From Cunninghamella blakesleeana (taxonomy: Eukaryota; Mucoromycota; Mucoromycetes; Mucorales; Cunninghamellaceae), in assembly GCA_017871115.1 (NCBI GenBank), contig JAFCIZ010000001.1, positions 5,313,501-5,377,500 on the forward strand: 64,000 bases of DNA. The letters run 5' to 3'. The notes beneath the pieces were generated by a model. That model was not told where the DNA came from, did not search any database, and saw only the letters and a list, made by a program, of their open reading frames with translations. How positions within the stretch are numbered: position 1 is the first letter of the stretch; the number at the start of each line of letters is the position of its first letter. Shown piece by piece: positions 12,129-61,591 of this stretch. The translations under genes were made by a program, and so were the position numbers.

Positions 12129-15100
12129 TTATAGAAACCCTAATCTATTTTATCACTTTCTTTCTTACATTCTTTCTTTCTCTTTTCCTATTTTTGAATT
12201 CATAGCTCCATACACGCGTTATAATACCGCTAATAACTCATATACCAATAGCAACAACAGCAATACATTAAATAATAATAATAATAATTCACTCAATATC
12301 CCATTCCCACCTCAAAATAATGGATCAGCCAATACACCCTATTCTTCGTCGTCATCACTCGCTTATAATACAACGCCAACCAATACTACCTCCCCATATT
12401 CAACTACCTCATCTCCAGGTTATCACTCTCCCAATGTTTCTAGGCAGCAGCTTAATAGCACTACACCATTAAAAAAGTATTCACTACAGCCTCCTGCCAA
12501 ACTATTACCTTATAGTAAATCTATGCCTTCCTTAGGTTTTCCTGGTATGTTTCCTCAAAGATCTAATCAAGATGAAGATATTTTAACTGAAGCAAACATG
12601 AAAACTGGTTTTACTGACCGTTCTTCTGTAGCAGTAAGTATATTTTTTTTTTCCTTTTAATATTATTATTTTCGATATATATACCATGAATGTATGATAT
12701 AAAAAGATGATGGAAGTATAATATTTTTATTGATCTTTTTTTTTTTTTCATTTCTATATGAATAAATCATTGATTAACTAAAAACTGGATTGATAATAAT
12801 AACAACAAAAAACAATTTTTAGAATGATCAAACATGTGCTCATGATATTATATATGGAAAATTACAAGATGATCAACGTTTACTAAATGATATGGGATCT
12901 TTTATGGTGGATGTATTAATGAGAAAACGCAATGCAGCTCGTATTTCTGGGTAAGAACCATGAATGATTGGCTATTATAAAGTTATGAATTTTTTTATTA
13001 CCAAGTGTCTAATTACTTTTATCACTTTTATTACTATTATTACTATTATTATTATTATATATAAATAGACCTTCTTTATTCAAGCCTCCTTCTCGTACAG
13101 CACTTGTAGAATCAAAGAAAGAACAATGGATACATGAATTAGCTAACGGTACTGTCCTTTTAAATAAGCTAGCTCGTAATGTTCCGCATGGTTATAAAGG
13201 TGAAAAATTACTAGAAACTTTAGCTACTCGACAAGTTCCATTCTTAAGAGCCATATGGTATATCAAAATTGTTGGATTATCTGAAATGGTAACTTATTTG
13301 TAATTAAATTTTAATGAGATCAGACACTTTTTCAAACAATACATACACACGCATATATATATATATATATATGCATGCTGATAAAACTAATATTGTATTT
13401 ATCTTCACTTTATTTTATTTTATATTGTAGTCTCAACGTAATGTTAGTAATGCAGGATCAAGTACCTCTCATGCATATAATTGGACTATTGTTGTAACCG
13501 GCTATTTAAAAAAACAATTAGCAGACCTTGCTACTACTCAATCAAATAGTAATACGAATACAATGCGTGGATATAGAAATTCTAACGTACCAGGTGTTAG
13601 CCCAGCTGTCAATGCAAATGATAATCAAACGAAACCATGGATTACCCCTGAAGCAAAAACACGTTTTGAATCAAGATGGGCTTATAGTACCAAATTAACA
13701 CGCTGGCAATATTGCGAAGGTTTATTAGATCAAAGAACATTTTTAAAATGGTCATTGGATACGTTGGCTTTATGCAGCTCTTTTGAAATAATGTGGGTTG
13801 TATTAATTGGTCTTATACAAGATTATATTGATGAATATAAACGGAATAGAACTTTAACTAAATTATTAATCGAAACTTTAATCAAGACTTATAATGCGGT
13901 ATGCATATATATATAATAAAGATAAAAAAAAAAAAAAAAAATACTTATTATACCATTTATTTTAATTTTATTTTAATGTATCTTAAAATTTTTATCAACA
14001 GGTATTACAATGTTCTAATGCTAACTCACAAAACAATAATTCAGATTCGTCAAATGCTCAATTAAATGTAATATATGGTCTAAAGCGTGATATAGAAAAA
14101 ACACTTCAGGTAAACTATATATATTCAAAATTAAATAAATTAATAAAAATGGTTCAATATAGTATAGTAATTTTTTTTACTCTCTTTATTTTCAATTTTA
14201 ATTTATTAATCTAGTCATTATTTTTATCAAGTCCTGATATGTTTGTCATTCCAAAATTATACCACCAATATAGACATTTATTTGAAATGATCCTTCAACA
14301 AACAACAAAAACTTTGCCTGATACTAATTACGTAAAGGATATATACTGGACCTCAGTAAAAAAAAGAAACGAAATATTTTGTGGGACATGTGAACAAAAT
14401 CAACTGGGTAATACATCACATATTAATAACAGTAATAACAACGGTAACAGCAGTAATAGCAACAATAATAATACCAATAGTACCAATAGTTTACAAAATA
14501 ACAGTAATAATAATGTTAATAATACAGATATAGAAAGTAAAACCATCAAATCATTAAATAATTCAGTTATTGAAACTAAATCAACAACATCAGAACGTGG
14601 GGAAATAGATGAAGAACATATTGTACATACCTTAGATATGATTGGTCGTCATGCGGACAGTGGGCACTTAATACTTAATAAAATGGGAAATGATAGCTAT
14701 GGATGGTCAGATATAAGAGGGCATACAGCCTATTCAGCATCTATGGCTATTTTTGGGTGTATAATCAATAGCAACGGAGCTATTCATTCAAGTAGGCTTG
14801 TCAAAATAGTCGGTATTTTATGTCAATGGGCAATTAGTGAAGCACGGCATGGTGATTGGAGGGCGTTTTTAGTATCATCTATTTTATTATGCTGGCGTGA
14901 TATGGATAAATCTACAAATAATCGAAGGAACCATTTGCAAGAAGCTTTGATGGAATTTCTAGATAACCATATTTCTATGACAAGTAACAGTAATATAGCA
15001 GCTTTATCCTCGTCTCAAACAATAGGAACAATTAATGAAACTATCTCTAATACACCCACTAGCTTTTTATTTGATACCTTTATACGGATGCATCTATTTT

Positions 15101-18100
15101 CATATCATAGATATTTAAATAGATTAACAGCAAGGGGAAACCTTGAGAGGACACAACAAAATCAAGAAGATGTAACATCTTGTTTATATCATTTGAAATC
15201 GTTACCTTTATTACACCCTGCACCTATACATTTAATTAATCAAAGACGTGTTGCTCTTTATGGAACTAGACGTGATAACAATGATAAAAGTCGCTTGGAA
15301 ATAGAAGCAATTGAGCAATTAAAACAAATAGCTAGACAATGGATTGTAGGGGAAACTAAAGATGATACACTATTTGGAGCTGATGCATGTGATATGACAG
15401 AACCTGTACCAAATGATACACCAGAAGCTTTTGAATTGGCTTTATCAGATAAATGGGAATATCAATTACAAAAGCTACTTCCATCGTTAACGCGATATGT
15501 TATTATACAATTTACAAGTGATTGGTTGGTTAAACAAGTTCAGTTGTTTGTTGTAAAAAATATACAAATTGATAAAGACAATTGGCGGGTGATGACATCC
15601 CCCGGGTCATGTTTACTTAATGTTCGTCAATACATAGCTATTATCAAGATATTAGATATCTGTAAAGACTACATTAATATTTTAAATGTAGCACTATGGG
15701 TACTTGAAAAATCAAATGATCGATATGTGTTATCTGCAGTCATTGATACACTTCAACGTTATTCTAACATATGGAAATTGGCAAATGAAGGAAATCGTGT
15801 GGCAAAAAAAATATGGGAAAAACATCAACAATTACAACTACGTAATATTCGTGAAAGGTGCATCATGATGTACATGATTCAATTGGTACAAGAAGGCTTC
15901 AATATTACAGACGAAGTACGATTGCAGTTACAACATGACTTACAAATGAAACCAAAAATACGTGGCCGACCTCCTCAAATATCATTAATGGATGAGTTAC
16001 ATCAAGTCATTAGTAATGACGCTTCAAATTTGTCTGTGCAAAATACTATTGAAACACTTTGTTTAGCTTATCAATATCAAAATGCTTCGCTTTGGATGAC
16101 GATGGTCTTGGATGGTTTATTAGAAACAATTCAACAATGGTATAAAAAGACAGCAAGTGATACTGCTTTATATGTTGGGGATGATCAACAACGCAATCAA
16201 CAACTAACATTACAACGTCTACTATGTGCTTATGCAGATGTTATTAAAGGGATAGTAGATCAATGCACGTTAACAGGGCAATTGAATGATATAATTGTAA
16301 ATTGGTTGTTAAGTAAACCTATTATTGCTACACAATCATGGATACCATTCTTTATAGCACTGTTAGCTGCAAGAAATTTAGTCACAATGGATTCAATTTT
16401 TTATCGGTTTGCATTACCATGGTTTGATCAAGTCAATCAACATTTATTACAAGAACCTGAAGCTACAACAACAACAGTTAATAATCAATGGTTACAAGTA
16501 TGCGAAAACATGATGGTTTTAATTCGTATATTAGTTGTACAAGAACGCTGTTACTGGATTCATCAAAATGAAGATTCTATAGAGGATAATAGTGGTACGT
16601 ATCAACAACCTTGGGTATTACGCGCTGAAGATGTATTTCGATTACAAACATTACGATATTCACGATTAGCTGCTAGTTTAGATAAAATTGAACCTATGTT
16701 TGCCTTGATGGAAAAATTGGTACTTATTGCTAGTAGTTTACCTTTAAGTAGTCCGTTACTTCAAGAACTTGTAATGCTTAGAGCTGATTTATTACAGATT
16801 GAATGGTTTAGACAAGCATGTGTTCGCGACTTAAACGGTGTGTATCAAAGATTCTCTTCACATGGGACAGAAGCCAGTACAGAAAAAAAAATCAAGAAAA
16901 AGATGCTTAGTATTGTGGATGAATTGATTGGTGGTACTTTGGTAGATTTACGACCTCATTTGCATCACGCAGCCCTTGTTCAAGAGCCAGATTTTATTGA
17001 TAAGATTAGACGAGTATTTATGAATGTAACACAGTGGAATGAAGAACAATGTCGTGTCCAAGTAAGTTTATTACTGGATAATATCTTACTCTCTGATGGC
17101 GGCAATACTCAGAACCCAAATAACCCTCATATTTTGGGTGGTGACGATGTTACGATGCATAATAATAACACAACATCTGATAGCGGTAGCAATAACAAAG
17201 ATTTAGATGCTTTTGTAAAGTTCTTTTTTGATATTGCTTTATCCAGTGATGACCGATCTCTCTTTTTCAATAATGTGATCCACGGACTACGCAAACGAGT
17301 GCTGTTAGAATTATTAAATTACGGTATAAGACTTTTAGAAGGTTGTAATAATATTATTGGTAGCAATGAAGATGGTTTATCAAAACAACATATGCAAGAT
17401 CATGCTTCTAATTCACCTACAAATCAAGATCAGGCTCATAATGATCATTCCATGACTTCCTCCTCATCTTCCTCTTCCTCTTCCATTTCTTCTAATAACG
17501 TACAACAACAACAAACACAGCAACAACAGCACCAACAGCAAAAGCGATTGAATGTTATCAACTCACCTTCTCCTATGTGTGCATTATCAACTATTCCTTT
17601 TCCAAAAAATGTATTATTATTATCTTCTGTGGACGAACCTTTTGTTTCTACAAGATTTACTTATAAAAGTCAAGCCTTTTTAAATATCATGCAACATATG
17701 ATGGCACAGAATATTTGGGATAATAATAAAAAAATAGATTTGATAAAGACTACTTTACGACACATTAAACGTTTTCAATCTTGTTTGCCTGTATATCAAG
17801 TCATGCAAAACGCTCATACCACTTTTTCAAAAGCTGTAGCAGCATTAGAAATTACAAAAAATAATGTGGTAATTTAATAATAATAATAATAATAATTATT
17901 TTTATTTTTATTTTTATTTATTTATTTTTACATATATTTAGGATGCTGCTGTTACTTTAGTAGCTACTGAAGGTATCCAATTGGATCAATCTGATTTATC
18001 TGTTACACTTCAAGATTTAAGAACTAGGTATATATATATATAATATTAAATATTTTATATATTTTAATTTTGCCTTCGTTTACTTATCTTTATTTCTATT

Positions 18101-22755: not shown

Positions 22756-25700
22756 CTACGAAATAATAAGATCACTTAGTTTTATATTTACAATTGGTAC
22801 AGTTTCCCCAGATTCATCTTCTTGATGTAAGATTTCTTCATATTGCTGAAGACAATATTCTTCGTTGTGACCTTGAATGATATTAAGTATGTCATTTTTA
22901 TCATTTATTTTCCCATTTTTGCGTTCTTCTTTCTCTTCATCAGTAATTTCAAATTTATTATCATTCGTATCACTAATTAATTTAATAATATCATGGACTT
23001 CACTATATTTATTACCATCTAATATGGTTTTGCTATACTGTTCAATTGTTATCTTATCTAAAGGAGAACTGTCTGTTGCATTAGGTTGTTCTTTAGCTAT
23101 TGTACACAAGTAATCATCCAGCACCCAAGGGAAGCTAAGAAAATTAGATTGATGAATGGCTCGTTCTGAGGGATGATAAGTGACATAATACCACGCTGCT
23201 GCTTTCGACTCCTTTTGTATTTTTATTTCCATCCTTTCATTTGCTGACATTCTTGCTGTTGCTGATGTCGGTGTAATGTTGGATGAAAATTCTAATTCAA
23301 AAATATGTCTATATTTTAGTCTTAAGGCGTAAACAGATGCCATCATTTCTTGCTGTAAATGATCATAATGATAAGATTCATCTAAAACTAGGTTATCATA
23401 CTTGTTATTGTTTTGGCTGTTGTTACTAAAGCCATTAGTATTTTCACCATAGTCTTTCTTTTTTCCAATTTCATTGTTATATTTACTGTTTAAATAATAT
23501 TGATTTCCAAGAGGTGTTACGACATACCCTGTGATAATTTCTGCTTCCGTTTGGATACCATATTGCTCCATTAATTTTTTTAATGCATATTCATATTTTT
23601 TTTTTGTTTCACGAGCATCTATAATGTATTTTTCCATACCATCCTTTTTAAGCCGTGGATCATAAACAACTGTTGTATCGGTTAACTTGGTGATCATTTT
23701 TTCCATATAATCTATATAGGTAATCGGTTGGATCATTCTGTATATTCTTCCTAGTATTTTAACGGATTTATAACTGGTATAATTTGGTACTTCTAAAAAA
23801 TCTGGGAAAGTTAAGTCGTTCGACTTATCTTCCAAAGTAATAGCACAAGGTGCTTGAATGAATTCTATCCATAAAAATAAATGTAAATATATAAATATAC
23901 AAGTATATGTTCATCATCATTATCATTTAATACAGTTATATGTGAATGCATGTATTTATATATGTATGTATGTATGCATATTTACCCATAACATCAGCAT
24001 ACTGAACAGATAGTTGAGTACATTCACCATCTAGAGCATTACGACTAGATTTATCAGCAGCTCTTAAGAAATATTTTTCAATACATTCACGATGATCATT
24101 AAGAACATAATGAACAAAATATTTTATAGCCATAGAACGAGAGAATGGTTTATCTGATGCTGTATTAGGTGATTCTTTATTTTCTAGTGTGTTTGATAAT
24201 GGTCGGAATGGAATTAATTGAGGATCCCAAATAATACTTGTAAAATATATATATAATGAATAATGAATAATGAATAATGAATATAAATATAAGTATAAAT
24301 GATGATAAATATAATTTTAGTTATGGTCATATATATATATGATCTATTTTATTTTTAATTCTATATGTTTTTTAACTTTTTATAATCCTATATTTTATTT
24401 TTTTAAATCCTATTTTATATTTTATTATAAATATTACTCACGTGAAACGTTGACCAATAAACTGACCACCAACAATTTGACTGGGTAAACTAGATGGTTG
24501 TTTAGATGAGACGACAATAACATCATTCCAATGCCTTAATTTAGGTGAATTTATCGCTTGAACGATTTTTATATCCCCTGAATGAAGACAAGGTTTTGGA
24601 AATATCATACATGGCCCTTTAACGATTTGACGTTTTGATAAAAAACCTTCGTTTAAATCAGAAATTTGGCAAAAAATTTCATCAGGCGCTAAAGTACCTG
24701 TATCGTCCAAGATTACCATTAATTCCGCCCCACGTTTAATATGTAAAGAGCCCATTTTACGCATACTTTTTAATCGATGAAACTTGAAAGCACAAATGCT
24801 ATTATAGATAAATGGATCTAATCGTGTTAAAAACCCAGCTTGAATCATATTTCGCATACGTTGCACAGTACCAAATTCATTTGCAAATTCCTTTAAATAA
24901 TCATATGTAATAGATGGATAGTTATTTAATGTATCCAATTTTTGGACAGAATGTTGAACCATAGAATGAAACACCCGTTCATGAATCCCAAGCGACATCA
25001 ATATAGTAATTAGAGAACGGTCAAGAAAGGCTGGTTTATAAGTGGAGAATTGAATGATTTCTAAATCGGAAGGCGGTTTATTAAAAACATACTGACAGGG
25101 TCTTAATTGTATTTTCACTTTGCCGGATATAAAATTAGATAATGCTAGTACACCTAATGTACCGCCTAAAGTAAATTGGATTGCACTTGGTGTCCCATTA
25201 ATAGCATCAGCTTTGTAGGAGAGTTTGGTTAATTCACGAGCAAATTGGGAAGACATTTTACCACAACTTGGTCTTATTGAACCATCATTATTATAACTGT
25301 AATCAATCCATTCAATACATGTAGGTGTTTGATTATTACTGTTATTATTTTGATTTTGATTTTGATTTTGATTTTTTTTATTATTATTCTTCAATTTCTT
25401 CATACTGGCATTATTATTATTGCTATTATTATTACCGTTCAATTGCCAATCTATTTTAACTTTTTCTGTAGGATGAAGACATATATCCATTGCTGAAGTA
25501 TATTGAGATAAAGATGTTACTAAATCCATTTTTCCCATACTATTTAAAATATCGTCTATAGTTAATGTTGGAAAGGAAGCAAAAAACCAGCAAGCATGAT
25601 GTTTAAGTAAAGTTGTATCATAGGCCAAGAATTGATATGTTAATTTTCCTAACTGAATACCATTAGTTAAAACTTTATAAATACGATCAAATATAGATTG

Positions 25701-27314
25701 CTCTTTATAGGATTCATCTAGTGAAGGAGGAGGACCACGACGTAAAAAAGAACTTGGTAAAGGGCCTAAATCTTCTTCCACAAATTGAACTTTTAAAAAT
25801 CGATCCATATGGTGTTTGTATTTTCTCAATAAACGATTGGATTCTTCAATACGAGGTGGTTGTACAATCAAAGACGTGGGGGTGATATAGACGGAATAAA
25901 TGGTAGCAAAATGATCATCGTCCATGATAGGTAACATGCCATACTCCACGGTTGATTTTATTTTATCCCAAGCAATTTGTAAAGCCAATTCTGGGTCATG
26001 TTCTATTTTATTTTCTGCAATAATACATTCTAATAATTGGCAAGCAATGGAAGGTTCTAAATCATTCAATATTTTATAAAAAGACCGGCCCAAAGTATAA
26101 GGGTTAAAGCAGCGATTACTTATCGCGCATTCCAATAAATAAAGTAATTTATGATCGCGTATGGTTGCAGAACGTTGTTCTGGGTCATAAAAATATGTGG
26201 CTGGCCCTTTTGTAGTAACAAAATCCAAAGAAGTCAATTTGCTATAGTCAGTGTTGAAACGCAAAATACCCAGTTCACTTGTTTTTTTAAAAAACTCTGT
26301 AAAGTTAGGTGATGAGATATCCCTTTCTGCGAATTCAATGCAGAATACATTCCATTGATGAAAATTGACAATAAAAAAATCTGGTTCTACACCTATGGGT
26401 TGTTGATTTACATCGTCGGCTTCATAATAAATCCCCCCTCTTTCTAAAACAAGTAAACGTTTCCAGACTGTTTTTGGTTCATGAGGGTGATGGCGGTGCT
26501 TCATTTTATCTTTTTCCCATATTATAGGCGGATGTTTCAAAGCAAAAGTCAAAGCTGCATATTGAGGATCTATCACTTCAAATTTCATTCCCATTGTTAG
26601 CATAGTATATGAAAAGTCGATTTTGTACTTTATGCCGTGATAATAGAATTTAATTTCATAACAATTCGTTGATGTATCCATGGTTAAATTTACTTTGATT
26701 GGCGCTTTCCAATATCTAGTAAATTGTGCTGATTTTGAAAAGAATCCTAACGATAATGCTTCCGCATTGGTAGTGATTATTTTTTCTTGTTGTTCATGTT
26801 TAATAGATGAAGTGCCTTCTTCTCTCTCCGGTATTATAAACCTTGCTTCTACCAAATTACCATCCAATTCTAAATTTCCTTTTGTAAATTCTGCTGAGAA
26901 TGGTTCTATTCTTTTTTAAATAGAAAAAAAAGTAACATAATAGAAATAGATTGAAATAAGTATAATGATCTATCAAAATAAAAATAAAAATAAAAAACCA
27001 TAAGCTTACGCAAAAGTAATAGTGGCAACGTTGGTTTTAGGGTCTAAATCTATACTTCTTATAATACCATATTTTGAAAAGAAGATTTCTATTCGTTTTT
27101 TTGTAATCCTTGAATTTAAATTGGTTACAATAAGCGTGTTACTGATTAATTCATTATGTGCTTCTCTTGATTCAATATTATAATTCACTTGATCGTGAGT
27201 TGTTTCATTAATATTTTTATTATCCTCTGTATTCGAAGGTGTATTAGATAAATGAGAAATATATTCATTTATCCTTTCTTCATTGTTATTATTGCTATTT
27301 GAATGAAATGGCAT
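22756..27314 (-). CDS. RRM plus RNA-directed RNA polymerase (RDR/QDE-1 family), catalytic loop lost
   Basis: Four exons (27314-27010, 26910-24442, 24236-23986, 23864-22756) give 1377 residues. Residues about 55-130 resemble an RRM (NTLIVTNLNSRITKKRIEIF, then KYGIIRSIDLD). The rest follows cellular RdRP order: DEIFCQISDLNEGF after an LMVILDDTGTL segment, CLHSGDIKIVQAI, the catalytic-loop region, IIWDPQLIPF, then IQAPCAI and FPDFLEVPNYTSYKS. Where the family has D-x-D-G-D, this protein reads GG-QFIGQ-RFTIIWDP (residues 918-922), so all three metal-binding aspartates are gone. The lysines expected in GGxKG and RPSxxKF are also replaced (GGTLG at 684-688, RPCQYVF at 705-711). There is no stop or frameshift, and flanking motifs are kept. 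Active homologues make double-stranded RNA for silencing; this one probably cannot polymerise and may be structural or regulatory (inference). The intron-1 acceptor AAG was chosen over a nearby TAG because only it keeps the frame. Confidence 0.88.
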
Positions 27315-36093: not shown

Positions 36094-36940
36094 AATTATA
36101 TAAATACATCTATATATAATAATAATAAAATGGAATTTAATCATCATGTAAAAAGAAAGGAGATTAAAAAATAATAATGAATTAAAAGTAATTAAAAAGT
36201 GTTGAATTATATCAAAAGAATAGGATAAAAAACGCACCTTTATTTACAATTGAAATTTTATAGTCGCGTCACAGTGATTAAATAATGGAAAGGAGGAAAG
36301 ACATAAATAGCATAAAAAAAATAATGTTTAGGTTACTGAAGTATAAATATATTTAAAAATACTATTATGCAATTTTCAATTAGATATATATTTGGGTTAA
36401 AAAAAAAAGGAATATGTACTCGCATAAAAAATAGATTATCAACAAAAAAAAAAAGGAAAATAAATAAGAAAATGGAAATGTAGAATGGGATTGGATTAAA
36501 AGTATCTAAAAAAATCAGAATATGATTATTGGTGCCGGTAATCATATAAATATATTTATACACCATGGGAATATTTATATTATAAAGGATTTAAGTTAAA
36601 TCACCATATAATATATAAGTAACCTTGTATTAATAAATTATATTTACATATTAAACTAGTAGCAGCTTTTTTGTTTTTTATAATTTTATAGTTTTTGATT
36701 GGATAGATAATTTTTCCACGGCAATATTTTTTCCATTTTTTAAGTCATTAAAACCTCTGATCAATGAATTTTGCCACGGAATCAGACTTTATCCTCGCTG
36801 TTTTAAATAAAAGGTATATATAAATATGTGGAGAAAATGCTTTTTATTTTTTTATTTTTTTAAAATTAACATATAACTATTATTAATACTTTATATTATA
36901 CAAGGGAAAAATAAAAATAAAAGAAACAACTTAAAAAAAG
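36094..36940. other. Intergenic region, no gene seen
   Basis: 850 bp between prefoldin 2 and the DUF1479 gene. A TATATAAATA site at about 36814-36823 is a plausible TATA element for the downstream gene. Short open frames on the minus strand are hydrophobic AT artefacts. Confidence 0.55.
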
Positions 36941-38608
36941 ATGCAAGCTTCTACAAAGAAAAGTAAAGGAAATATTTCATCTGTATTTGGACAACTTGGC
37001 GGTGGCAAACCAACTCTCGCTCCATACTTTCTTGATATAAAGAAGCAACTCGTTCCTGGAGAAGAACAAAAAAAGAAAATCCAAGCATCTTATGAACGAT
37101 TGATCCAAGCATTTGAAAAAGAAAAAAAAGAAATCCATGAACGTGGCTCCAAAGTGATTCCTGAGGTCCATATCAATGATATCAAGAAAAATAATGGAAA
37201 ACTACCAGATGCTATTGCTCAACTCGTTAAAAAACGGGGTGGTTTAGTTGTTCGTGGTATATTAGAGCGAGATCAGGCATTAAAATACAAGAATGATATT
37301 AAAAATTATATTCAAGCTCATCGGGATGATATTACTGGTTTTCCTGAAGATAAACCACAAGTATGGGAATTGTATTGGTCTGCTTCACAAGTAGCTGCTA
37401 GAGCGAATGAAAATTTTAACACCGCTACACTCGCTTTAGGTCAATTATGGCATGCTGACCCTTCTACTCCTATTGATTTTACTAAAAATTTAACTTATTG
37501 TGATCGTTTAAGAATTCGTGAAGCAGGCGATTCAAGTTTTACTTTGGGTGAACACATTGATAGTGGTTCAGTTGAAAGTAAGCCATTTATTATATTATTT
37601 ATTATTATAGTATTTTATCGTGATGATCATTAAAAGAATCATTTTTATTCTAATATGCACCTCTTTCTTTCTTTCTTTCTTTTTTTTGCTTAGGGTGGGA
37701 AGATGAAACTTATAGAAAATGTTACCAAAAAATATTTGATGGCGAATGGGAAGTAAGTATCAAAATATTATTTTTAGAGCATTGCAATTTATCATTTATT
37801 TTTATTTATCCATTTATAAATTTCTTTGCTTTATTTTTTTTTTTTAAAAAAAAAAAATTAGGAATATGATGCTTTTGACGCTACTCATCGTGCAGAGGCA
37901 AAAATGATACTCCATGAATCACCAGGTGGCTGTAACATGGTAAGCATGGAGATAGTATATTAGAAATATTTACCAAATATAATAGAATAAAACTAATATA
38001 TATATTTTTAATTTTTATTTATAAAGTTTCGTAGTTTCCAAGGATGGATTGGTTTATCAGACATTGTTAAAGACGGTGGTCATATTAAGCTTTGCCCCTT
38101 ACTTAAAGAACAAACAGCGTATTATATGATGAAACCTTTATTAGAAGAATATATTAATGAACCTGATTTATTAGGCGCTTATCCTGGTCGATGTCATGAT
38201 ATTTCAAAAGAACATCATTCACCTATTGTTGATATTATGGTTTCTGCCCCTGATATACGATGTGGAGATGCCGTTTTTTGGCATTGTGATCAAGTCCATT
38301 CTGTAGAATCCGTGAATACTATGTCAACAGATTCAACTGTTTTATATATCCCAGCTACACCACTATGTAAAATCAATTCTGATTATTTAAAATTACAACG
38401 TGATGCCTTTGAAAAAGGTTTAACACCTCCTGATTTCCCTGATAATCATAGTGAACAAAACTTTAACGATCGTATTAAAGTGGAACATTTGAACGAACTT
38501 GAAAAGATTGGTATGGGTTTCCAACGGTTTCCTATTTTTGATCACGAGTCTTTAACTCCTGGTCAGCTTCAAGCTATTAAACAACATAATGAAATCCTTG
38601 GTATATAA
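36941..38608 (+). CDS. DUF1479 family protein, putative Fe(II)/2-oxoglutarate-type oxygenase
   Basis: Four exons (36941-37577, 37694-37752, 37862-37939, 38027-38608) give 451 residues, the normal length for fungal DUF1479 proteins. Typical segments are KKRGGLVVRGIL, a QLWHADPSTP block, GEHIDSGSVERWED with a candidate H-x-D metal pair, FRSFQGWIGLSD, and a distal histidine in FWHCDQVHSVESVN. The arrangement resembles the double-stranded beta-helix of Fe(II)/2-oxoglutarate oxygenases, but the reaction is unknown. Neighbouring fumarylacetoacetase does not obviously share a pathway with it. Confidence 0.85.
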
Positions 38609-41556: not shown

Positions 41557-44551
41557 ATGGAAGAATTTATTAACCATCAAATAGAGCTTGTTCAAGAAGA
41601 AAAACGTATTGATGTGGAAGAAACACAAAAATTATTATCAACTTTCACTCCTTCACAACTTCAAAAACGTGGCGTGGCATTACTTGGTCTCAGAGTAACA
41701 GGTACGGAAGAGTGATATGAATAAATAAGTGTGTATATATTTTATTATATATAATAATTTAATCATATATACTTATTAATAACAGGAATGCGTACTGGCC
41801 TTGGTGGTAAAAGGTAAAAATGTTAATGATGACAATAAAAGAATACAAATAAGGTTAAAAAAAAGCTCATAATAGCAATTATAAAAATATATTACTATTC
41901 TAGTTTAGTAGACTTGGAACTTGGATATACAAATAAAGAATCAACCATGTTTCCAACACATAAAATCACAACTGGAGATATAGTTGGATTAGAAGAATAT
42001 AAAAAGGATAAAAAAGAAAAACCATCCAAGTCAAAAGAAAACTTATGGTCTGGTGTAGTATTACGAGTAACTGACACAAAAATAACGCTAACTTTATCTC
42101 AAGACGATGAACTACCACCTGAAATACAAGATCGGTGTCAAATGTAAAAAAGAAAAGAAGCCAGTGACATGTATACATATATAGGAATGCATGTGAATAG
42201 CAATTTTTATATTAATGTTTTTATTTTTCTTCTCTCTCTTTCACTACATTTTCTTATTCTAGCGTCAAACTTGCAAATAATGTCACTTATGAAAGAATGA
42301 TTAAGACATTGGAACAACTTAAAATCCACGCATTAGAAGGATCATCACCATTATATCAAGTATTATTAGGTCAGCAACGTCCTTCCACAGTAAAACAAAT
42401 AGATGACTTGGAGTTTTTTGATAATACATTGAATGATTCTCAAAAAGATGCCGTACGATTTGCTTTGGGCTCTCAAGATATTGCACTTATTCATGGTCCC
42501 CCAGGGGTCAGGTCACAAATATATAAATAAAGAGAATAGGAATGGAGTTGATTTTTAAAAAAAGGATAATAAAAGGGATGAATTTGGGAAATAAAAGCAC
42601 CATTATTCATACTTTTTTTTAATATTTCATTATATATAGACTGGTAAGACCTATACACTAGTTGAAATTATTCGTCAATTATCAGTCAAACAAGGGAAAA
42701 AAGTACTTGTATGTGGGCCATCGAATATATCAGTAGGTAAAGTATGAAATATAATAAGAAAAGTAAAAAATAAAAAAATAAAAAAGCGATTATAATTAAA
42801 TCTTAACTTCTATTATATTAGATAATCTTGTTGAACGCTTGGCTCGTCACCGTATGAACCTTGTTCGTGTTGGTCATCCTGCCCGTATCTTACCTACAGT
42901 TTTGGAGCATTCTTTGGATATTATCACGCGTACATGTGATTCAGGAAAAATCATTGCTGATATTCGAAAAGAAATGGACGATAACTTAAATAAAGTTGGT
43001 AAATCAAAAAATAGGACAGAAAGAAGAATGCTCTATGGTGAAATCAAAGAATTACGTAAAGATTATAGAATTAGAGAAAGAAAAGTTGTGGATGAAGTCA
43101 TTACTGGTGCTCAAGTAGTTATTTCTACATTAAATGGGTAAAAAAAAATAAACGAAATAAAATTAAAATTAAAAAATAATGAGCATAATACATACGTACC
43201 ATTAATATTAAATATATATATTGGCGGATTATTTTTATTTTTTATTAAAAAAAAAAATAGTTGTGGAAGTAAAACAATGATGAAACGTGAATTTGATGTA
43301 GTTATTATAGATGAAGCAACACAGGCTCTTGAAGGTAATAATAATAAACAATAAATAGAAACATATATATATATATATATATATATACTTAAAGAGACAA
43401 AAATATAACATGAAAATCTAATATAAAACTTAATATTTAATCTTTTATTTTATTATTATATTAGCGGAATGTTGGATTGCGTTACAAAAAGGAAAAAAAG
43501 CTATTCTTGTAAATGACGATAATAACAATAGTACAATTAAAAAAAAAAAATTAAAAGGATTAAATAGTAACATATTATTTATTTTATTTTTACTTATTTA
43601 TTCTAATGCATATTTTTATATCAATTAGGCAGGAGATCATTTACAATTACCCCCAACAATCAAAACTCCCATAAAATTAAAGGATAACAATATAATCAAA
43701 AAAAAGAGTGGACTGTCAACTAACATAGATCTTTCAACCACCTTATTTGATCGATTATTATCTATGTATGGGAACAAGATTAAGAAAATGCTCGTTGTAC
43801 AATATCGGATGAATGAAAAAATCATGCAATTCAGCTCCAAAGAACTCTATGATAATTTACTTGTAGCTGACCAGAGTGTTGCCACTCATTTATTACAAGA
43901 TCTTCCAAATATAGAATCCACTGAAAATACTGAAACACCTGTCGTTGTTATCGATACAAGTGATACTGGGTTAGGGCATGAAGTAACAGATGATGATCAA
44001 GAAGAACAAAGTAAAGCTAATGAATTAGAAGTTTCTTTAGCAGTGCATCATGTACAAGAATTAATCAATGATGGATTAAGTCAAGATCAAATTGGAATTA
44101 TTACACCTTACGCTGCTCAAGTATCTCGATTAATACGTGATATTCGTGATAAATGGCCACATGTTGAAATTGGTACAGTGGATGGATTTCAAGGACGTGA
44201 AAAAGAAGCTATTATTGTCTCACTTGTTAGATCAAATGATGATGGCCAAGTTGGGTTTTTACAAGAAAAACGTCGTTTAAATGGTAAAAAAAAAGAAATG
44301 GCATGGTCATTATTTTCATTTTTAACATAATTCTCACTTTCTAATTAAATTATTTTAATATTTGTGTATTTTTTTTCTTAGTGGCAATGACAAGAGCTAA
44401 ACGCCATTTATGTGTTATTTGTGATTCAGAAACTCTATCAGGAGCTAAAAGTGGTGGTACATCTGGAAGATTTGATGGTGGATTTTTAAAACGGTGGATG
44501 GAATGGTTATCTGAAGAAGCTGATGTAAGATTTAGTGAATTTATTATTTAA
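41557..44551 (+). CDS. SF1B DNA/RNA helicase, IGHMBP2/Hcs1 (DNA polymerase alpha-associated helicase A) type
   Basis: Ten exons (41557-41701, 41786-41813, 41904-42143, 42263-42506, 42640-42736, 42822-43137, 43261-43334, 43465-43508, 43629-44283, 44382-44551) give 670 residues. The N-terminal OB-like domain (LGLRVTGMRTGLGG) is followed by Upf1-like helicase motifs: QKDAVRFAL (Q motif), GPPGTGKT (Walker A, split by intron 4), VCGPSNISVDNLVERL, DEATQALE (motif II), ILAGDHLQLPPT (motif III), QYRMNEKIM (motif IV), GTVDGFQGREKEAI (motif V) and VAMTRAKRHLCVI (motif VI). It ends soon after WMEWLSEEADVRF, as in Hcs1, without the R3H and AN1 domains of human IGHMBP2. The intron-4 donor is GTCAGG, weak but fixed by phase. 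Confidence 0.92.
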
Positions 44552-59519: not shown

Positions 59520-61591
59520 TGAAAAATTCATGTTTATTAATTTATAGTCATAATATTTTATATGTTTATTTTAAATTAATAGATGAACAAAGTAAAACAA
59601 TCATATCATCTTCATGTTCAAAAAGTATAAACTCTCATTCCTCATCAAATAATTATAATTCCAATAATTTCTTAGATCTGGATGACGCCTTTGAACCAAA
59701 GCATGATATACCAATCGTAAGTATACCAAATACAACACCAAAAAAAAAAGAAGACTCAAAAAAATTTATTACGTCCGATGGATATAACAGCAATAAAGTA
59801 ATCAATGTTTATAAAGAAAATGTAAGTAATATATATATATATATATATTCATATACAAGTAGTAATGCATAAAATTTACTTAATGATTAATTAAATTATC
59901 TATTATTTTTATGCTGGTACAATACAGTCATATAAAAATAAACAATATCGAAGAAATGAGTGTAAAAATGCCAGTATCAAAAGATCATATAATAACTATC
60001 GTGTACCAACGCCAAAATACGATCAAAATAAATCTTTTCAAAAAGGAATCAAGCCCAACCAAACAAATAAAGAGCAAAATTACTACAACAATAATAATTG
60101 GTGCTATAAAGACCAATATAATGAGGACTATAATAATGCATTATGCATACAGGTATGAATATATACAGAAAATAATCTGGAATAGCATTACTAATATTTA
60201 AATCTCTCTTTTTATCTTATCCTATTCTATTCTTTTTTTTAATCAGTCCGAAATTAATAAAAAACAATCCAATACAAACGAAATAAATATTAATCCATCC
60301 TTCAACAAAAATAAAACACGTGAGACATCAAAAATAATTTATAATGAGGTATCTCCATATAGGTGCACTATGAATAATAAAAATTCCGACTATGATTCTA
60401 AAAAGAATGACAAGAAAAGAGATAATCGAGTTTTATGCAATTCATCATTTCCGTCACCATCTACATCATCGCCACCTTGTTACATACCATGGATATATCC
60501 TCCTCTTAGTAATAATCATAATCCTAATAAACTATTAAATTACCATCGACAAACATTGAATGATCATATCATGAACGATGAACCGTCACAAGACCATCCT
60601 ATAAATCTTTTTTCTTCCTCACATATATCTACTAGTCATCATCATACTCCCTATTTTATTGAAGAAAAAAAAGAAAAAGAGCAAAAACAAGGTGGGGACA
60701 AGAAAATGAAAGAAAAATCATTACCATCCTATTTCAAGTTTAATATCAAAGCTGTAGAATTTAAACCTACTACTACTACTACAAGCATTGATACTGCTAC
60801 CACTGACCATTATACTATATTAAACATAAGTGTGAGTATTATTTATTTATAAATAAAATAAGAATCTATCTGCAAAAATAAAATAAAATAAAAAAAAAAA
60901 AAAAAGATAAATATTTTTTAAAAAGTACTTATGTTATATACATAGGAAAAAATAAAAACTAATGGCGATAAAGATAATTCAAGCAAGCTTTTTGTAAATA
61001 AAATAAGTTTTTCACCTTTTTTGAAAGCGAATTTACCTGCACCAAATAAAGTTGGTAAGATAGTATATAGTAATTACCTAGTATTAATGAAAATAAACGG
61101 ACAAAAAGGAAACGTTATATATTTAATATATATAATTATAAATTTTAGATCCTATTTGGCCATATGGTAAATATTCTTTTAAACTTGAATATCAGCCACC
61201 TTTGGTTTACGCTGTCCAAGATTTTCAAGGTTATATACACTATTTATATCCTCATGTAAGTTGTAAGAATAGTGTTAATAAAAATATAGTATAAACTATA
61301 TAGATAATTACTTATATAACAGAGGTTTATATTAATCACCATATATTTCACAGCGTCCATTACATATGATGAATATGCAAGGCTTAACAAGTGCTTTTTT
61401 TTCAATAATACCTAATAATGAATTAGAACAAAATCAATTGGTATATCACGATCTTTCTTATCTTTCTATGCATTAAAGTAAAAATAAAAATAAAAGTAAA
61501 ATAACGATGATATAAAAAGCCTATATTCATAGTTATTCATATCATTGTACTCATTCTTTTTCTTTTTTTCTAGGGAAATACGTTAATCTAA
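58848..61591 (+). CDS. Ataxin-2/Pbp1-like protein: Lsm (SM-ATX) domain and PAM2 motif
   Basis: Ten exons (58848-58897, 59015-59159, 59274-59475, 59583-59821, 59928-60152, 60247-60831, 60946-61054, 61149-61255, 61354-61440, 61574-61591) give 588 residues. Residues about 55-130 form an Lsm fold (GNVVYVTLKDGTCFKGTLFN, then IIDIQAINTD). A long Asn/Lys/Ser-rich disordered region follows. At residues 495-506 SKLFVNKISFSP has the exact PAM2 spacing S-x-L-x6-F-x-P, which binds the MLLE domain of poly(A)-binding protein. The C-terminus has DPIWPYGKYSFKLEY and HMMNMQGLTSAFF. Lsm then PAM2 is the ataxin-2 order; the LsmAD domain that normally follows the Lsm fold is not recognisable, so it is divergent. 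Pbp1/ataxin-2 proteins act in stress granules, mRNA stability and TORC1 control. The last exon is only 18 nt. Confidence 0.75.
60982..61017 (+). other. PAM2 motif coding segment
   Basis: Codes SKLFVNKISFSP, matching the PAM2 anchor positions Leu-3, Phe-10 and Pro-12 that insert into the MLLE pocket of poly(A)-binding protein. Part of the ataxin-2-like gene. Confidence 0.7.

Follow-up and report, generated by a model that had tools for sequence, protein, structure and literature searches.

A mucoralean member of the cellular RNA-directed RNA polymerase family that has lost most of its active site and is probably retained as a non-catalytic protein

What is left of an RNA polymerase once its catalytic residues are gone, and is such a gene still kept for a purpose? 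This question is raised by a gene of Cunninghamella blakesleeana that lies on the minus strand at 22756-27314 of a 64-kb stretch of genomic DNA, which we term the window and to which coordinates refer unless a contig or locus is named. The gene belongs to the cellular RNA-directed RNA polymerase (RdRP) family. An earlier note on this DNA had described it as full-length and uninterrupted, with QFIGQ at the place of the D-x-D-G-D loop, and had proposed that it is a retained pseudo-polymerase. We have analyzed its gene model, its active site, its paralogues and the regional distribution of its amino acid changes. We read the gene as an old paralogue of L007, an RDR-alpha polymerase of the same genome with an intact motif; it has lost catalysis and has been kept as a non-catalytic protein. 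This reading rests on sequence comparison, and we would give it a probability of roughly 0.7.

Rebuilding the gene from the minus strand gave an open spliced frame of 1377 codons with one terminal stop, and all introns have GT..AG borders and, as the earlier note had it, join in frame. The Pfam RdRP profile (PF05183) matches exon 2 with 298.1 bits over profile positions 1-434 (cut-off 23.8), while exon 3 alone reaches 23.0 bits, slightly below the cut-off. Exon 1 has a partial match to RRM_1 (22.8 bits, cut-off 20.7), and a Pfam scan of exon 4 gave no match. In the Protein Data Bank exon 2 matches 7w82, 7w84, 7eu0 and 7roz. When the whole protein is compared with solved structures, two plant RDRs rank above QDE-1, namely Arabidopsis RDR2 and the protein of 7w82/7w84, which we take to be the maize RDR enzyme (E 1.3e-64 to RDR2 in 7roz vs 3.5e-6 to the best QDE-1 chain, 5fsw). 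Judged by these profile and chain matches the protein is a member of the cellular RdRP family by descent, and, being nearer to RDR2 than to QDE-1 and having a partial N-terminal RRM, it is classed as an RDR-alpha homologue. A pattern scan of bacterial and archaeal genome contigs gave nine matches, none of them a relative, and the viral contigs scanned gave no pattern match.

The genome (31.9 Mb in 12 contigs) contains at least three PF05183 genes: the window gene, L007 on contig C2 and L008 on contig C4. The matches to exon 2 elsewhere in the genome fall in the L007 gene (37% and 32%) and the L008 gene (34%). The loops of both paralogues are intact, DLDGD in L007 and DYDGD in L008. Thus, the active paralogues that the earlier note had suggested looking for are present as candidates, as far as their motifs tell. 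End to end, the window protein and L007 share 29.1% identity and 45.9% similarity, and a global alignment with L008 gives 17.9% and 33.2%. These levels are close to those published for Mucor, where RdRP3 is reported to have 30/48% identity/similarity to RdRP2 and 17/29% to RdRP1 (PMC5384783). Because the levels are similar, the window protein and L007 plausibly correspond to Mucor RdRP2 and RdRP3, in either order, and L008 to RdRP1, a correspondence drawn from identity levels and not from a tree. The levels of the window protein would fit RdRP2 equally well as RdRP3.

For the active-site comparison the window protein was aligned with L007, Arabidopsis RDR2 (residues 369-1126) and the second plant RDR, and the alignment was repeated with L008 by another method; region borders in the window protein were set by alignment to RDR2. 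Over the aligned columns the window protein is 25.5% identical to RDR2 and 32.5% to L007. At the loop, it reads IVGGQFIGQRFTIIWD, L007 reads CSGGDLDGDDYTVIWD, RDR2 reads CSGGDLDGDQFFVSWD and the second plant RDR reads CSGGDLDGDLFFITWD. QFIGQ indeed forms residues 918-922 of the spliced translation (24464-24450), and all three metal-A aspartates, the residues that the earlier note had reported missing, are replaced (D830>Q, D832>I and D834>Q in RDR2 numbering). The catalytic damage is wider than that note had recognized. The metal-B Asp-Gly (RDR2 D555-G556, numbers of our own count) has become P649 and S650. Of the invariant pair in the first double-psi beta-barrel (DPBB1) the Gln (RDR2 Q582) is kept but the Lys that contacts the nucleoside triphosphate (NTP), K589, is changed to L. 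The bridge-helix Gly (G886) is replaced by E and the trigger-loop Lys (K923) by Q. In total 10 of 12 active-site residues, which are identical in the two plant RDRs, L007 and L008, are lost across three exons, and only Q582 and the loop glycine G833 persist. The window protein is thus like the RDR-alpha polymerases (RDR2, PDB 7roz/7eu0; L007) from the slab to the head and in its RRM-like N-terminus, whereas the active site that is intact in those proteins is dismantled here.

The two plant RDRs, L007 and L008 are identical in 84 columns, 47 of which the window protein keeps; it retains 2 of the 12 active-site columns vs 45 of the 72 other four-way invariants (p=0.004). Ten of the twelve columns were taken from the RDR2 paper (D830, D832, G833, D834, the Asp-Gly, Q582, K589, G886 and K923; PMC8713982), and we added K610, which matches QDE-1 K767 in position, and R584. 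Without these two additions the counts are 2 of 10 vs 45 of 74 (p=0.019). Replacement of DGD by AAA, or of D834 by G, is reported to abolish RDR2 activity, and in RDR6 a null change, G921D, falls on the bridge-glycine position (PMC8713982). In the alignment the features that define a cellular RdRP as an enzyme, metal-A, the metal-B Asp-Gly, the DPBB1 Lys, the bridge Gly and the trigger-loop Lys, are not there. The protein is almost certainly dead by the known mechanism; RNA synthesis by the two-metal route is very unlikely, in support of the earlier note. Upstream of the lost metal-B motif the window protein also has an Asn/Gln-rich insertion of about 40 residues (window ~25315-25440), which is absent in L007 and both plant RDRs.

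Erosion is not uniform along the protein. Columns identical in both plant RDRs were taken as the outgroup state, and changes seen only in the window protein or only in L007 were counted in six region bins that cover 223 of 226 invariant columns (RDR2 531-539 lies between bins). The ratio of window-only to L007-only changes is 22:9 in the slab (p=0.03), 16:3 in DPBB1, 15:4 in the neck/connector (p=0.02), 17:3 in DPBB2 and 28:2 in the bridge/trigger region, which is the most eroded; neck3/head, with 7:5 (p=0.77), is the best kept. Core and head differ (61:8 vs 7:5, p=0.02), also in the second alignment (61:8 vs 6:5, p=0.014). Where both plants and L007 are identical, the window protein keeps 35 of 43 residues in the head and 47 of 108 in the core (p=2e-5). 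Where only the plants were required to agree, the window protein shares 41 of 80 head residues and 55 of 179 core residues with them (p=0.002), and the corresponding figures for L007 are 43 of 81 and 108 of 178 (p=0.28). The identity profile is reversed as well. Identity between the window protein and L007 has its minimum in bridge/trigger (24%) and its maximum in the head (43%), and L007-RDR2 identity is highest in bridge/trigger (51%), 33% in the head and lowest in the neck (30%); the contrast (z=4.1) is indicative only, as the two comparisons share columns. Relaxed evolution is strongest in the catalytic core and is undetectable in neck3/head.

All three introns of the window gene are common to L007 in alignment column and phase, although the L007 gene may have one more 5' exon. 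In both genes intron 2 directly follows the active-site loop, and this shared position supports the splice path at the loop as well as an old duplication at the DNA level. The earlier note had considered a splice path that restores D-x-D-G-D and a sequencing error. A contiguous DxDGD-coding pattern (GAYNNNGAYGGNGAY) is absent from the gene, a loop spanning a splice junction not having been searched for. With no contiguous candidate inside the gene, an alternative exon bearing an intact loop was rejected. The sole contiguous pattern in the 64 kb lies on the minus strand at 60453-60467, about 33 kb past the gene, and probably arose by chance, because no minus-strand open frame of at least 40 residues is listed there.

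These data bear on several other explanations. An error of sequencing, assembly or gene model has to be considered with a single assembly. However, each of the three Asp codons is at least two base changes away from the window codon, which makes a read error unlikely, and the ten changed active-site residues lie in three exons of an open frame whose splice path matches L007 and which offers no contiguous DxDGD stretch; we regard such an error as next to negligible. An enzyme that is still active with another chemistry would have a parallel in R3B2, which is reported to cleave single-stranded RNA despite altered catalytic residues (PMC4395119, PMC8072676). Here, the metal-A triad, the metal-B Asp-Gly, the NTP Lys, the bridge Gly and the trigger-loop Lys are gone together, and the Asn/Gln-rich insertion precedes the metal-B position, which makes this explanation very improbable. 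The gene could further be a recently dead pseudogene that still appears intact. In five of the six regions the window protein does have more changes than L007 (p below 0.05). In a simple AT-rich model 6.1% of point changes in the coding sequence are stops; 2.5 stops are expected at 0.01 neutral changes per site, where the chance of none is still 0.08, and 12.7 at 0.05 changes per site, where it is 3e-6. Neutral erosion as deep as that of the core would bring many stops, and neutrality would erode the head too, yet the head changes at about the rate of L007; neither the introns nor the splice sites are damaged. Death in the very recent past would leave no stops, but it would fail to explain the deep change of the core together with the preserved head. 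A recent pseudogene is therefore improbable, and retention is favoured over recent decay because there is no stop, the introns are intact and the head evolves no faster than in L007. This agrees with the earlier note, and we consider it likely that the gene is retained as a protein.

Several observations weigh against a retained non-catalytic protein that works through its preserved parts. The relaxation is graded and reaches beyond the core, as the slab and the neck, too, have changed more than those of L007. The head contrast comes from few changes, one paralogue pair and distant plant outgroups. Of ten invariant charged head residues five are unchanged, K959 being replaced by R, and for this reason the conserved head features may reflect the fold instead of a binding surface. 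The low identity between the window protein and L007, 29% over residues 1-100 and 24% over residues 101-200, argues against a well-kept RRM, and the region before RDR2 residue 369 was aligned without an outgroup. The predicted structure of exon 2 alone was unusable (mean predicted local distance difference test score 31.7). Finally, Arabidopsis RDR2 is reported to behave as a monomer (PMC8713982), and a head-mediated dimer in RDR-alpha proteins is hence unestablished.

How could a catalytically dead polymerase be of use? Tentatively, and at well below even odds, we suggest that the pseudo-polymerase works by binding RNA, a partner or both. The part that is kept is a scaffold made up of an RRM-like domain, two barrels that lack active residues, and neck3/head. 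RNA might be held in the RRM-like domain or in the cleft, and a protein partner might be held through the head. The likeliest partner would be an active RdRP of the same cell. The pseudo-polymerase could set the access of this partner to transcripts, or tether it to transcripts that are marked for silencing or degradation. The odds of this mechanism are slightly lowered by the weak conservation of the N-terminal region and by changes at half of the invariant charged residues of the head. A more specific arrangement can be drawn from QDE-1. Its head accounts for 1,720 square angstroms of the dimer contact, which totals 2,215 per subunit, and it was proposed that at any time one of the subunits is held open and inactive (PMC1750930). 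In RDR2 and RDR6, head truncations abolish silencing, and the role of the head is described as unclear (PMC8713982). By analogy, the window protein might be the dedicated dead subunit of an asymmetric RdRP heterodimer, paired with an active paralogue through the preserved head. The inactive role proposed for QDE-1 would then be fixed in a separate gene, and an RNA-copying enzyme would have turned into an RNA-holding one. We regard this arrangement as doubtful; it would possibly serve the Dicer-independent RNA degradation of Mucorales.

The dead protein might also be a negative regulator or decoy, which restrains silencing by vying with active RdRPs for RNA or for a common partner. The order of regions, which is that of the intact-motif paralogue, and the preserved head would suit such a competitor. 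In Mucor, loss of RdRP3 is reported to raise epimutation and to impair the non-canonical pathway while transgene silencing stays intact (PMC5384783), and the identity relation between the window protein and L007 resembles that between RdRP3 and RdRP2. However, orthology to RdRP3 is putative, and restraint and assistance are indistinguishable on present evidence; we think a decoy unlikely. Between a pure decoy and a protein that binds RNA and a partner we favour the latter, on indirect evidence in both cases.

Altered loops in the RdRP family have been noted before. In the ciliate Paramecium, transgene silencing is said to require RDR3, an RDR with a disrupted catalytic motif, and this would set a functional precedent. 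In the same fungal group, a loop DPDED is mentioned in passing for the 'RDR2' of Mucor circinelloides (PMC4791657). No other complete homologue in the alignment of that paper has a loop that differs from DxDGD outside the second residue; some of the gene numbers used there are arbitrary. This protein keeps all three Asp and differs by Gly to Glu, while the window protein keeps none of the Asp. The Gly to Glu change is the one found in the loss-of-function alleles RDR2 G833E and RDR6 G866E (PMC8713982). Loop erosion may extend more widely in Mucorales, given the Mucor circinelloides loop (PMC4791657). Cryphonectria parasitica rdr4 is another fungal RDR relative described as lacking DXDGD; it differs in having a disrupted RdRP domain, alternative splicing and a place in the RRP-3 clade, and its authors judged it a pseudogene (PMC4182546). 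Of six RdRP candidates reported from Branchiostoma, DbDGD is intact in three and so missing in three, but a complete RdRP domain is present in two only, and defects of gene prediction are noted there (PMC6396948). Among the open-licence matches listed, no title or abstract described a retained, catalytically dead mucoralean RdRP.

What stands out at the Cunninghamella locus is that a full-length gene with conserved introns and a reversed profile of conservation has lost almost all of its catalytic set. The setting is distinctive too, a fungal group with a known RdRP-dependent, Dicer-independent pathway. In Mucor all three RdRPs are reported to act in Dicer-independent mRNA degradation, their functions being incompletely understood, and it was suggested that they synthesise short strands complementary to the target transcripts (PMC5384783, PMC11943222). 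If our reading is true, at least one RdRP in Mucorales acts by binding, since it is unable to synthesise RNA. The two-barrel polymerase superfamily would gain a clear pseudoenzyme, in which one can read domain by domain what survived the loss of catalysis. The preserved far end of the protein, beside two normal-looking RdRPs, suggests that it is kept for a job other than RNA copying. The features of the gene, and of loci elsewhere in the genome that are discussed below, are given in Table 1.

Table 1. Parts of the pseudo-polymerase gene (window coordinates) and silencing-related or sex-locus-like genes on other contigs.
Feature	Position	Strand	Basis or remark
Pseudo-polymerase gene, whole	22756..27314	-	4 exons, 1377 codons; spliced translation, single terminal stop
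Exon 1, start of the N-terminal RRM-like domain	27010..27314	-	Pfam RRM_1, profile 1-44 of 70
Exon 2: N-terminal region, slab, DPBB1, neck, DPBB2 up to the active-site loop	24442..26910	-	Pfam; RDR2 alignment
Loop QFIGQ at the D-x-D-G-D position, residues 918-922	24450..24464	-	Alignment to RDR2 D830/D832/D834
Intron 2, directly past the loop; L007 intron in the same column and phase	24237..24441	-	
Exon 3: most of the bridge-helix/trigger-loop region; bridge Gly > E975	23986..24236	-	RDR2 alignment
Exon 4: end of the trigger-loop region (Lys > Q1012), neck3/head, C-terminal tail	22756..23864	-	RDR2 alignment
Argonaute and Dicer-like genes	C8:1141147-1142119 (L009/L010) and C1:7062453-7063367 (L011)		
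Triose-phosphate transporter (TPT), HMG-box gene, AAA_12 helicase	C5:586.5-594.5 kb		L033 3035-6180, 6537-9588; L034 to 4550

A genome profile search found at least one Argonaute gene and at least one Dicer-like gene with two RNase III domains. In the exons read, and judged by motif, both seem to keep their catalytic residues. For Mucor lusitanicus, three Argonaute and two Dicer genes were reported (PMC7763443). R3B2, the nuclease of the Dicer-independent, non-canonical pathway (NCRIP), was not recognized among the genome matches to PF00636, PF14622 and PF00035, profiles that may miss it. Its RNase III signature is altered, and paralogues of it are described as lacking an RNase III annotation (PMC4395119). 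The non-detection is weak evidence for this reason, although the two double-stranded RNA-binding domains (dsRBDs) of R3B2 might yet have shown. RNase III-like matches outside Dicer, at C2:2490k and C5:3805k, were read as the mitochondrial-ribosomal type and rejected as R3B2. The dsRBD profile gave four matches at E up to 10, in the C2:2490k gene, beside the Dicer gene, at C5:98k and at C2:2382k; that at C5:98k was rejected as R3B2 and read as a helicase-like protein.

On contig C5 a TPT transporter, an HMG-box gene and an AAA_12 helicase stand within about 8 kb, a row chosen among 20 HMG and 12 AAA_12 matches. In Mucorales the sex-locus genes are of the HMG type and have an RnhA-type helicase beside them and a transporter on the opposite side. 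From its gene content the C5 row looks like a mucoralean sex locus with rnhA, in support of a mucoralean-type setting, and its helicase would be RnhA, as inferred from the AAA_12 match and the position. Among six matches to FKBP12, considered as another marker for placing the fungus, the best looks like a nucleolar FKBP and was set aside in favour of the sex locus.

In the window itself 12 open frames of at least 220 residues are listed, and two of them are exons of the pseudo-polymerase gene. Six others were scanned with Pfam and gave importin-like, F-box, Mediator-12-like, methyltransferase, Gig2-like and helicase matches; no RNA interference gene was found among these six frames, all of at least 220 residues. 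The helicase frame, an AAA_12 exon at 43629-44330 (174.9 bits), lies some 16 kb away from the pseudo-polymerase gene and is not the sex-locus helicase. The Mediator subunit 12 matches (29.9 bits, cut-off 23) lie in an open frame of 1220 residues at 14215-17877, and the Gig2-like protein (PF07350, 185.7 bits) is encoded at 36935-37633.
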